NCBI RefSeq assembly: GCF_001431725.1
Contig: NZ_CP013106.1
Span: 1 to 64,000 of the forward strand
Origin: Halomonas huangheensis
Lineage (GTDB): Bacteria; Pseudomonadota; Gammaproteobacteria; Pseudomonadales; Halomonadaceae
Length of the DNA stretch: 64,000 bases
Direction of reading: 5' to 3'
Position 1 is the stretch's first letter; each line of letters starts with the position of its first letter. Below the pieces are notes generated by a model. It made no database searches and was not told where the DNA came from. It was given only the letters and a program-made list of their open reading frames with translations. Shown here in pieces: positions 2,982-33,588 of this stretch. The position numbers and the translations under genes were made by a program.

Positions 2982-6529
<3,548 letters not shown>

Positions 6530-30395: not shown

Positions 30396-30624
30396 GATGA
30401 GCTCGCAGTGGAATGGGGGCAGTGGAATAAATCTTCAAACAGCGAACCGCTGTCGCGGTCGCCCATTATAGAGGAAGCAGAGCGGTGTCTTGTAGGAGTC
30501 CGCATTTCAGTGCATCGGGCGCATCACGCCGACGTGTCGCTGGACGGCTGGGGCATCTGAATGCTAACAATAGGGGCTTTTGTCGCTTTCCCTTACCTCG
30601 TTCCTACCTCGCTGGACGCCTCGA

Positions 30625-32139
30625 ATGCTAGAAGCTACCGTCAAGAAGATTCTCCAGGCCCGGGTCTATGATGCCGCCCGGGAAACGCCGATCTCTCCGG
30701 CGCTCATGCTGTCACGCCGCTTCAACAATCAGATTCTGATCAAGCGTGAGGATCTTCAGCCGGTTCACTCCTTCAAGATTCGTGGTGCCTACAACAAGAT
30801 GGCGCAGCTCAACGACGAACAGAAGAGTCGTGGTGTGATCGCCGCCTCGGCGGGCAATCATGCCCAGGGGTTGGCCATGGCGGCGAGACAGATGGGCGTC
30901 AAGGCGATCATCGTCATGCCGCGCATCACGCCTGAGATCAAGGTTGCTGCGGTGCGTGGCTGGGGAGCGAAGGTAGTGCTCAAGGGCGATGCCTTTGCTG
31001 CTGCCGCCGAGCATGCCGCCGAGCTGGTCAAGGAGCACGGCTATACCTATATCCCACCGTTTGACGATATCGACGTGGTGGCGGGTCAGGGCACCGTGGC
31101 GATGGAGATTCTACGCCAGCACAGTGGCCCGATTGATGCGGTGTTCGTGCCGGTCGGTGGGGGCGGGCTTATTGCCGGCATGGCGGCCTATATCAAGTAC
31201 TTGCGTCCGGATATCAAGGTAATCGGTGTCGAGTCCGAGGACAGTGCTTGCCTCAAGGCGGCACTGAACGCGGGTAAGCGCGTGACGCTGGATCAGGTTG
31301 GAGTGTTTGCTGAAGGGGTGGCGGTAGCTCAGATCGGCAAGGTTCCATTCGATCTGTGTCGAGACCTGATCGATGATGTCATCACCGTCAATACCGACGA
31401 GATGTGTGCGGCGGTCAAGGATATCTTCGATGACACCCGTGCGGTGTCGGAAACCTCCGGTGCTCTGTCACTGGCCGGGCTCAAGAAGTATATCCAGCAG
31501 ACCGGCGTCGAAAACCAGACGCTCATCTGCGTCAATTCCGGTGCCAATACCAACTTCGACCGTCTGCAGCATATCGCCGAGCGCACCGAACTGGGCGAAC
31601 AGCGCGAGGCGATACTCGCCGTGACCATTCCGGAGCGTCCGGGCAGTTTCAAGAAATTCTGTCGCACCATCGGCAAGCGTATGGTCACCGAGTTCAATTA
31701 CCGCTACGCCGACGCCGAGAGTGCCCACATCTTTGTCGGTATTCAGGTCAAGCCAGGCGGTGAAGACCGCCAGGCAGTGATCGACAAACTGGTCGAGGCG
31801 GGATATCCGGTCGAGGACCTTACCGATAACGAGTTGGCCAAGCTGCACATTCGCCACCTTGGCGGGGGGCGACCTCAGTCACACTTCGAGGAAGAGGTCT
31901 ATCGCTTCGAATTCCCCGAGCGCCCCGGGGCACTGATGAATTTCCTCACTCACTTGCCGCAGGACTGGAATATCTCACTGTTCCATTACCGCAACCATGG
32001 TGCTGCCTATGGCCGTGTGTTGGTCGGCATGCAGTTGCCCAATGGAGATCGCAATCACGTCGAGGAGCACTTCGACGAGATTGGTTACCGGTACTGGAAG
32101 GAAAGCGATAATCCCGCTTATCGCTTGTTCATGGCCTAG
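30625..32139 (+). CDS. ilvA: threonine ammonia-lyase, biosynthetic
   Basis: IlvA deaminates threonine to 2-oxobutanoate, the first step toward isoleucine. The 504-residue product (E. coli 514) has a PLP domain with the Schiff-base lysine in VHSFKIRGAYNKM, SAGNHAQGLAMAA and the phosphate-binding VGGGGLIAGMA. Two C-terminal ACT-like regulatory domains follow (about 330-504; ERPGSFKKFCRTIG and ERPGALMNFLTHL), the site of isoleucine feedback in the family. I chose ATG 30625 (MLEATVKKILQARVYD); the frame is open from 30580. Confidence 0.96.
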   Translation: MLEATVKKILQARVYDAARETPISPALMLSRRFNNQILIKREDLQPVHSFKIRGAYNKMAQLNDEQKSRGVIAASAGNHAQGLAMAARQMGVKAIIVMPRITPEIKVAAVRGWGAKVVLKGDAFAAAAEHAAELVKEHGYTYIPPFDDIDVVAGQGTVAMEILRQHSGPIDAVFVPVGGGGLIAGMAAYIKYLRPDIKVIGVESEDSACLKAALNAGKRVTLDQVGVFAEGVAVAQIGKVPFDLCRDLIDDVITVNTDEMCAAVKDIFDDTRAVSETSGALSLAGLKKYIQQTGVENQTLICVNSGANTNFDRLQHIAERTELGEQREAILAVTIPERPGSFKKFCRTIGKRMVTEFNYRYADAESAHIFVGIQVKPGGEDRQAVIDKLVEAGYPVEDLTDNELAKLHIRHLGGGRPQSHFEEEVYRFEFPERPGALMNFLTHLPQDWNISLFHYRNHGAAYGRVLVGMQLPNGDRNHVEEHFDEIGYRYWKESDNPAYRLFMA

Positions 32140-32437: not shown

Positions 32438-32466
32438 TTGTCATATAGCAAGTGTGGGCCTATAGT
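32438..32466 (+). promoter_or_regulatory. sigma-70 promoter for the 31-residue microprotein
   Basis: TTGTCA (32438-32443) and TATAGT (32461-32466) are separated by exactly 17 bp; each hexamer differs from consensus at one position. A start site near 32473 would give an untranslated leader of about 80 nt before the ATG at 32555. Confidence 0.65.
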
Positions 32467-32522
32467 CTGAATCAGTTGTTGCAATGTCATGATATAAATC
32501 GACAACCTGAATAGTAAATGTG

Positions 32523-32538
32523 TGGCCATTAATGGCCA
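32523..32538. repeat. 16-bp perfect palindrome in the microprotein leader
   Basis: TGGCCATTAATGGCCA is perfectly self-complementary and ends just before the ribosome-binding site of the small gene at 32555. It could be an operator or, in RNA, a tight hairpin that gates translation. Confidence 0.6.
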
Positions 32539-32554
32539 TGTAAGGGAGCAAGTA

Positions 32555-32650
32555 ATGAAACGCAAGCCTGATCTTGTTGCGGCACTGGTACTGGTGTTTG
32601 GTATCGGCGTTGTGGCGACCGGCTACGCACAAGCTCTGGTGGGCGGCTAG
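32555..32650 (+). CDS. 31-residue single-pass membrane microprotein (unknown function)
   Basis: A 32-codon frame including the stop encodes a basic N-terminus (MKRKPD) followed by one hydrophobic segment (LVAALVLVFGIGVVATGY, about residues 7-24) and a short tail (AQALVGG). The AAGGGAG ribosome-binding site lies 8 nt upstream, and a good promoter, a palindrome and a terminator bracket the gene, which argues for real expression. The charge pattern predicts the N-terminus in the cytoplasm. It is too short for most gene callers. I do not recognise a named family; function is unknown. Confidence 0.7.
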   Translation: MKRKPDLVAALVLVFGIGVVATGYAQALVGG

Positions 32651-32794
32651 GCTCACCCAGCTTCCTGCAGTGTTGGGAACCGATATGATGCCAGGTGGCA
32701 TCAGGGGGCTTTGACACTGTGTGGATATCGCTAAATCGATAATAAATGTATTAGCGACAATTTACGAACAGCGTTCTCTAAATCAGCTATTTTA

Positions 32795-32820
32795 TCCGGC
32801 CGTCCTATGTGACGGCCGGA
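32795..32820 (+). terminator. hairpin terminator downstream of the microprotein gene
   Basis: TCCGGCCGTC (32795-32804) and GACGGCCGGA (32811-32820) pair perfectly around the loop CTATGT, followed by TTGCGTTTG. It also lies 40 bp beyond the end of the convergent fthC gene and may serve it. Confidence 0.6.
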
Positions 32821-32859
32821 TTGCGTTTGACTCTCAATATATGATGTCTTGATGCCGCT

Positions 32860-33588
32860 TCATGATTTGCGGCGCTGGGGTCTTATAACTTGAGTATCAC
32901 TGACAATGGCATCAAGAGGCACGTCCCAGCTGGCTACCGGGAGTGAATCGACGTGCTGAACCTCATGGGCCAGTCCGATCAGTTTGGGACGTGGCCCACC
33001 AGCGTCCCGCTGCGGATGCGTGAAGGCCAGGGTGCGGTCGTAGAATCCGCCTCCCATGCCAATGCGCTGGCCCTGGTCGTCGAAACCCACCAGTGGTAGC
33101 AGGATCACATCCAGTGCCCAGGCAGGCCGACGGCGCGCACGGTGAGCACCGAAGCGAGTCGCTGGTTCGGCAATGCCGAAACGGTTGCGAATCATCGGTG
33201 TTCGCGCGTCATAGCGTACAAACCACAGGGCGTTATCCGCGAGAGGCCGAAGCACTGGAAGATAGGCGCGGGCATTGCGCTGGCTCAGCCAGGAAAGTAG
33301 TGGCACGGGATCGATTTCTCCGTCATTGGGCAGGTAAAGTGCCACATGACGGGCTGAAAGCATCTCGGGGAGGCAGCGTAGCTGTCGACACAACTGCTGA
33401 CTGGCATGGCGCTGTTCGGCCGAACTGAGCTGGCGTCGACGCTGGCGAAGAAGACGACGCAGCTGTGCGCGAGTCAGGGTGCTATGTTCGGTATCGCTGC
33501 ACCTGGTGGAACAGGATTGGGTTGCGGTGTGTTCGGATGCCGTATTGACGGTTGTTCCGAGATTGTCTGTTACGCGGATACTGCTCAT
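32860..33588 (-). CDS. fthC: 5-formyltetrahydrofolate cyclo-ligase
   Basis: FthC (YgfA) uses ATP to convert 5-formyl-THF to 5,10-methenyl-THF. The 242-residue product has a basic ATP-binding N-terminal segment (LTRAQLRRLLRQRRRQLSSAEQ), NDGEIDPVPLL, and the phosphate-binding IGMGGGFYDRTLAF. It has about 40 extra N-terminal residues compared with the family, so the real start may be further in. It begins 4 nt after the 3' end of the 6S RNA gene, and the two are probably one transcript, as in E. coli. Confidence 0.9.
   Translation of the reverse strand: MSSIRVTDNLGTTVNTASEHTATQSCSTRCSDTEHSTLTRAQLRRLLRQRRRQLSSAEQRHASQQLCRQLRCLPEMLSARHVALYLPNDGEIDPVPLLSWLSQRNARAYLPVLRPLADNALWFVRYDARTPMIRNRFGIAEPATRFGAHRARRRPAWALDVILLPLVGFDDQGQRIGMGGGFYDRTLAFTHPQRDAGGPRPKLIGLAHEVQHVDSLPVASWDVPLDAIVSDTQVIRPQRRKS

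Follow-up and report, generated by a model that had tools for sequence, protein, structure and literature searches.

A microprotein gene facing fthC in Halomonas huangheensis represents an uncharacterised family of predicted single-pass membrane proteins

Background

Does the short open reading frame located between ilvA and fthC in Halomonas huangheensis encode a genuine protein and, if so, what could be the role of such a small product? The frame was noticed in the window, which is the whole 64,000-nucleotide stretch of contig NZ_CP013106.1 analysed here, and the original prediction treated it as a self-contained gene. In this work we combine comparative genomics of the frame, its regulatory signals and its gene neighbourhood to answer the first question and to propose a tentative answer to the second.

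Results

Layout of the locus

The locus contains the following features.

30580..32139, plus strand: ilvA (threonine dehydratase), upstream of the microprotein gene and on the same strand, start codon as listed; PF00291 and PF00585
32438..32466, plus strand: sigma-70-type promoter TTGTCA-17-TATAGT, composed of TTGTCA (32438-32443), 17 nt and TATAGT (32461-32466); promoter scan
32523..32538, no strand: perfect 16-bp palindrome TGGCCATTAATGGCCA in the leader; palindrome scan of the window
32542..32548, plus strand: Shine-Dalgarno sequence AAGGGAG, 6 nt 5' of the ATG at 32555; seen in the sequence
32555..32650, plus strand: KPD microprotein gene (P0001), 31 codons, predicted single-pass; ORF list, conservation and AlphaFold2 helix
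32794..32821, no strand: hairpin with an 11-bp perfect stem between the convergent microprotein gene and fthC; folding
32860..33588, minus strand: fthC (5-formyltetrahydrofolate cyclo-ligase), the convergent neighbour; PF01812
33594..33779, minus strand: 6S RNA (ssrS), between fthC and zapA; Rfam RF00013, 102.1 bits
33862..34164, minus strand: zapA (cell division protein ZapA family); PF05164

The identities of ilvA, fthC and zapA were assigned by Pfam matches. Since 6S RNA and zapA follow beyond fthC in the window, the locus corresponds to the zapA-ssrS-fthC unit; the RF00013 match was absent from the finding reported in the original prediction. Comparison of the intergenic ilvA-fthC region with Rfam gave chance-level matches only and no hidden RNA. 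The microprotein has the sequence MKRKPDLVAALVLVFGIGVVATGYAQALVGG, and its gene has one strong copy in the genome. A second weak match in the same genome (G000:C1:4683600, E 0.002) lies inside a 422-residue frame and was taken as chance.

Conservation of the frame and coding selection

The frame search covered 58 genomes, namely 37 genomes of the genus of the window, its own included, and 21 genomes from other families of the order. A strong match was found in 34 of the 37 genus genomes and, at E < 0.02, in seven of the 21 others. Of the three genus genomes without the frame, G025 and G030 are drafts (completeness 85-86%) that yielded no fthC either; the third, G027, is 99% complete, no microprotein was found behind its fthC (locus L270), and the gene seems to be absent there. 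A scan of named genomes provided another sample, the named set, which consists of the window and the best 80 of at least 577 relatives. All 81 frames of this set begin with ATG and have 31 codons, and in a separate set of loci a few frames are off by one residue (32 in L029, 30 in L033).

In the named set, whose 80 relatives were picked by peptide similarity, which lowers pN, the pooled pN/pS is 0.195, and the 2431 of 3240 pairs whose pS falls in the range 0.1-0.6 have a median dN/dS of 0.14. For the 34 sequences from the genome search, which were not picked by peptide patterns, the mean differences at codon positions 1, 2 and 3 are 0.122, 0.082 and 0.345, respectively. The excess of third-position changes together with the low dN/dS indicates that selection acts on the microprotein frame at the protein level, and on this comparative evidence the microprotein gene is genuine and old and not a frame that arose by chance. 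The refutation test set beforehand, namely conservation of the frame in relatives that keep the ilvA-fthC synteny, with Ka/Ks, was thus passed, and the proposal that a genuine microprotein gene, equipped with a promoter of its own, lies between these two genes gains support from the conservation of frame, length and promoter. The gene had also been called unannotated, a label that is only partly correct, as some homologues in Halomonas and Pseudomonas are annotated as hypothetical proteins.

Promoter, leader and hairpin

The predicted near-consensus promoter is present and matches the consensus at 10 of 12 positions. Such a match alone is not unusual (two promoter-like sites were found in the region versus 1.1 expected from shuffles), and it is the conservation of the site that counts. 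Using as a criterion TATAGT plus TTGTCA with at most one mismatch in TTGTCA, and allowing spacers of 16-19, we identified the promoter in 67 of the 81 named-set loci (the window and the best 80 of at least 577), with a spacer of 17 or 18 in all 67, whereas not one was found in 200 draws of random segments of these loci, and shuffled sequences averaged 0.08. The promoter as defined is lacking in 14 of the 81 loci.

The 16-bp perfect palindrome, which had been listed as a part of the same unit, exists but is not a conserved element of it. The window has four perfect palindromes of this length versus 1.3 expected from composition. None was detected within 220 bp upstream of the gene in the 80 named relatives (the best 80 of at least 577), seven of which have upstream palindromes of 12-14 bp; in Halomonas cupida, which has the most similar protein among these relatives, the arms are reduced to TGGCT/AGCCA. 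The palindrome was rejected as an operator because it is not conserved, and it is probably incidental. The ribosome-binding site is strong, as had been stated, and GGAG precedes the ATG in 16 of 17 named relatives inspected.

A hairpin follows the gene, as predicted, and it is also kept in H. cupida (-21.6 kcal/mol, z -4.2 in the window). Its stem is 11 bp rather than the 10 bp originally given, and its standing as a terminator is less clear-cut than had been claimed, since the U-tail is weak and the hairpin is not among the sites returned by the terminator scan. In 52 of 80 named-set loci (window included; best 80 of at least 577) the stretch separating the convergent genes contains a perfect stem of 7 bp or longer, a count made with no chance control, and 29 of these 52 have a T-rich tail. 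The 11-bp hairpin is probably a terminator shared by the microprotein gene and fthC.

Features of the protein

The predicted combination of a basic start and one helix in a 31-residue frame was reproduced by the structural model. AlphaFold2 gives one helix at residues 7-30 (mean pLDDT 90, pTM 0.46) after the KRK start, and the peak Kyte-Doolittle hydropathy over a 19-residue span is 2.3. By the positive-inside rule, the KRK start suggests an N-in topology. Residues M1, R3, K4, P5, D6, L11, F15, V20, T22, G23, Y24, A25, Q26 and G30 are invariant in the 81 named-set loci (the window and the best 80 of at least 577); in the broad set this is true of P5 and D6 alone, and some proteins have lost the TG[YF]xQ end. 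The invariant or nearly invariant F15, G16, G18, V20, T22, G23, Y24 and Q26 look like a packing surface, but a conserved helix alone is no proof of docking. The tail ranges from about 4 to more than 20 residues and is unconserved in both sequence and length, and therefore it is unlikely to be the working part.

The slot facing fthC

We define the fthC-facing KPD family by a [KR]KPD-type start followed by one helix, and by a gene convergent with fthC of the zapA-6S-fthC unit. The window protein has this type of start and helix and its gene converges with fthC. The TG[YF]xQ end is typical of the family and is missing in distant members such as those at L041-L043.

The slot was surveyed in 91 loci, comprising 11 from the 58-genome search, 60 of the 170 order matches hand-picked across genera, and 20 class matches. 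The microprotein gene is convergent with fthC in all 71 order-level loci of this survey, and among the 20 class-level loci eight face fthC and 12 (L186-L197) do not; ilvA is found in 53 of the 91 loci and an EVE-domain gene in 16. Loci from the profile search gave a similar picture, with fthC on the facing strand in 30 of 30 order loci (one of them the window, and G056 shared with the slot survey) and within the 3-kb stretch in 12 of 26 class-level loci. In the named set (best 80 of at least 577), all 81 loci have ilvA upstream and in the same orientation, and a facing fthC lies within 2.5 kb in 80 of 81 and at 3.6 kb in L146; the median stop-to-stop distance between the two genes is 110 bp (80 loci). 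By comparison, in the 3-kb loci of Pseudomonas type, a label taken from named proteins in the protein search, fthC, zapA and EVE (PF01878) are each present in 17 of 17 and ilvA in none of the 17.

Because the left-hand gene varies while fthC stays, the microprotein belongs to the fthC side. This location may reflect function or merely old gene order.

Reach of the family

The profile search detected the microprotein in 170 of 390 genomes and 71 of 142 genera of the order, and in 37 of 369 genomes drawn from the class, a count that takes in some weak matches as well as four genomes of the order, that of the window among them; these order and class counts are lower bounds, as some misses are diverged copies. 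In the phylum, 34 of 398 genomes had matches, of which 31 belong to the order and one is a partial match in the class; two further matches inside 388-residue frames were taken as chance. The 220 order genomes without a match imply that the microprotein is not essential everywhere, even though some of them contain diverged copies. The framing of the gene as a feature of the Halomonadaceae was too narrow, since the family is order-wide, partly class-wide, and tied to fthC rather than to ilvA.

Genomes of family f21 carry a version of the microprotein with a longer tail, and a search with one f21 protein returned 417 proteins. Among the 120 of these that were listed, the named ones are mostly from Pseudomonas and bear the labels 'hypothetical' or 'uncharacterised', apart from one entered as 'inner membrane protein'.

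The flank of fthC was inspected in 26 genomes, 25 of which had no match at E <= 0.01 in the genome searches and one of which (G061) had a weak one. A small KPD protein facing fthC was found in five of the 26 (L268, L272, L274, L281 and L283); these genes all begin at most 240 bp from the fthC stop, and no such gene was found further out. In another five genomes (L278, L280, L287, L291 and L292) a hydrophobic frame without KPD faces fthC within 260 bp of its stop. These frames may be diverged members or chance, given that frames of this kind also occur further out in seven of the 26 genomes. Neither type of frame was found behind fthC in 16 of the 26.

Two tandem arrangements were observed. At L040, KPD microproteins are encoded at 5009-5077 and 5335-5415, both between ilvA and fthC, and G105 has two matches close together on one strand.

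The class-level loci away from fthC (L186-L197) encode KPD-like proteins that are possible relatives and were not counted as members. At six of them (L188, L189, L193-L195 and L197) the protein is 98-158 residues long, with a similar RKPD-type start and helix and a longer tail, and four of the six end in tryptophan. The long proteins of L188 and L195 adjoin genes for transaldolase and 6-phosphogluconolactonase (Pfam), and that of L197 adjoins genes that we take to be rsmA and apaG. A Pfam scan of five of the six (all but L189) gave no match over the cut-off.

Comparison with known proteins and published loci

No significant relative of the microprotein was found in Pfam or NCBIfam at curated cut-offs, in PHROGs at E < 0.001, or among PDB chains; the best E-values for the window protein are 0.26 in Pfam and 0.046 in PHROGs, and weak matches to PsbL and SecG at E >= 0.7 were not accepted as evidence. 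The closest described counterparts are Pseudomonas 'hypothetical proteins' of about 43-50 residues, such as P0012 of P. nicosulfuronedens and P0067 of P. syringae, which share the same KRKPD-helix-TGYxQ core; 16 such proteins are 55-65% identical to the window protein. Like the window gene, their genes lie by fthC and zapA (17 of 17 loci), but the proteins have a longer, often Q-rich tail and the 3-kb loci have an EVE-domain gene and lack ilvA. In Pseudomonas-type loci L055, L058-L070 and L073-L075, a short hairpin of the form GCC(T)...(A)GGC, some 25 nt ahead of the ATG, encloses a GGGGG Shine-Dalgarno core; three of its four pairs are invariant, and the one compensatory change (in L069) is no more than in shuffles.

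CydX and CcoM are small single-helix subunits of membrane complexes with a size like that of the microprotein. Unlike them, the microprotein is not encoded in an operon with a large subunit, and no significant sequence match was found in the four collections named above.

A survey of EVE-domain neighbourhoods describes, in the part available, the array zapB-zapA-ssrS-(fthC)-EVE with ilvA and rpiA next door (PMC7641849), and the microprotein gene lies inside or beside this array. The main text of that paper contains no occurrence of 'small membrane', 'transmembrane' or 'TM helix', and its available part does not mention such a small gene. P. aeruginosa papers, in their accessible portions, mention PA5228 and PA5227 either as neighbour to a ChIP peak of AmpR located at ssrS or as homologues of Fau and ZapA; the main text of a P. 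stutzeri small-proteome paper lacks the string KPD; and an Alcanivorax sRNA paper gives, in its available text, the order zapA-6S RNA-ygfA and uses 'small protein' once, for tmRNA. Peptide strings had no match in the open-access literature, and queries by locus tags and topic terms returned no description of the microprotein in the available parts of those sources. The microprotein represents an uncharacterised family of a known kind.

Discussion

On balance, we favour the view that the gene encodes a constitutive inner-membrane microprotein of N-in/C-out topology, which would act as a small subunit or modulator by docking on a larger, widely shared inner-membrane complex. Its own sigma-70 promoter would drive a monocistronic mRNA about 350 nt long, with its 3' end close to the hairpin at 32821. 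From the model and the charge pattern we infer that helix 7-30 would span the inner membrane, with the KRK end in the cytoplasm, P5-D6 at the membrane surface and the variable tail on the outer side, and that the conserved face of the helix would pack against the larger complex. The products of fthC, zapA and the EVE-domain gene are presumably cytosolic and are encoded on the other strand, so gene order names no partner.

An unlikely alternative is a type I toxin-like hydrophobic peptide held by an antisense RNA, as IbsC is by SibC. The comparison is invited by the size and hydrophobicity of the microprotein and by its location, as in E. coli K-12 ibsC (L266, 4891-4950; 19 codons, one hydrophobic stretch) occupies the equivalent slot directly behind fau/fthC and facing it, between fthC and the serA-rpiA genes, with sibC antisense. 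However, the two peptides have no sequence motif in common, both KPD and TGYxQ being missing from IbsC, and a sequence scan of 32540-32870 detected no promoter-like site of at least 9/12 on the minus strand from which an antitoxin could be transcribed. The wider scan gave one weak 9/12 site at 32518-32489, which is upstream, reads away from the frame and is within the range of shuffles. The distribution also differs from that of a toxin present in several copies or mobile and patchy: the window genome has a single strong copy, plasmids and phages gave no match at E up to 1 (a search in which distant copies could be missed with 31 residues), and the order-level copies occupy one slot, with the tandem pairs confined to few genomes (L040 and G105). 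Orthologues that are long-lived and under purifying selection likewise argue against a toxin.

Still less probable is a secreted peptide or the remnant of a signal peptide, in which signal peptidase would cut after A25-Q26-A27 and the tail or the leader would be the product. This tripeptide presumably fits the signal peptidase site rule, and some distant look-alikes have an AQA-like site with a longer tail. On the other hand, position 27 is T in 24 of the 81 named-set loci (best 80 of at least 577), and other lineages have S, E, K or Q at this position. The conserved part is the helix and Q26 and not the tail, so that no conserved A-x-A precedes a conserved mature part.

It is very unlikely that the conserved entity is an RNA, be it a leader, a dual-function RNA or a convergent transcript regulating fthC via overlapping 3' ends, with the frame being secondary. 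The constant orientation towards fthC at the short distance given above and the frequent hairpins between the two genes would fit such an RNA. Nevertheless, third-position changes dominate, and a conserved leader fold in the Halomonadaceae was rejected, as its mean z of -0.59 (72 loci) is no stronger than the control (-0.79). Finally, a chance open reading frame, conceivable because 81 ORFs of at least 20 residues overlap the 4.5-kb stretch around the locus, is refuted by order-wide conservation, purifying selection and the conserved promoter.

A more speculative extension of the inner-membrane subunit reading, to which we give little credence, is that the zapA-6S RNA-fthC growth-phase locus has an overlooked membrane component in this microprotein. 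The level of the microprotein would be tied to fthC and 6S RNA by convergent transcription, it would relay a growth-state signal to an inner-membrane or division complex, and it may be the ancestral holder of the slot where E. coli now has IbsC.

Conclusions

This analysis describes an uncharacterised family whose genes occupy one slot, in one orientation, next to fthC and 6S RNA; this holds for every order-level locus examined and for part of the class. The location beside 6S RNA makes the search for a partner worthwhile. Its identification would bring a further component to a locus associated with growth-phase transcription, folate storage and cell division.
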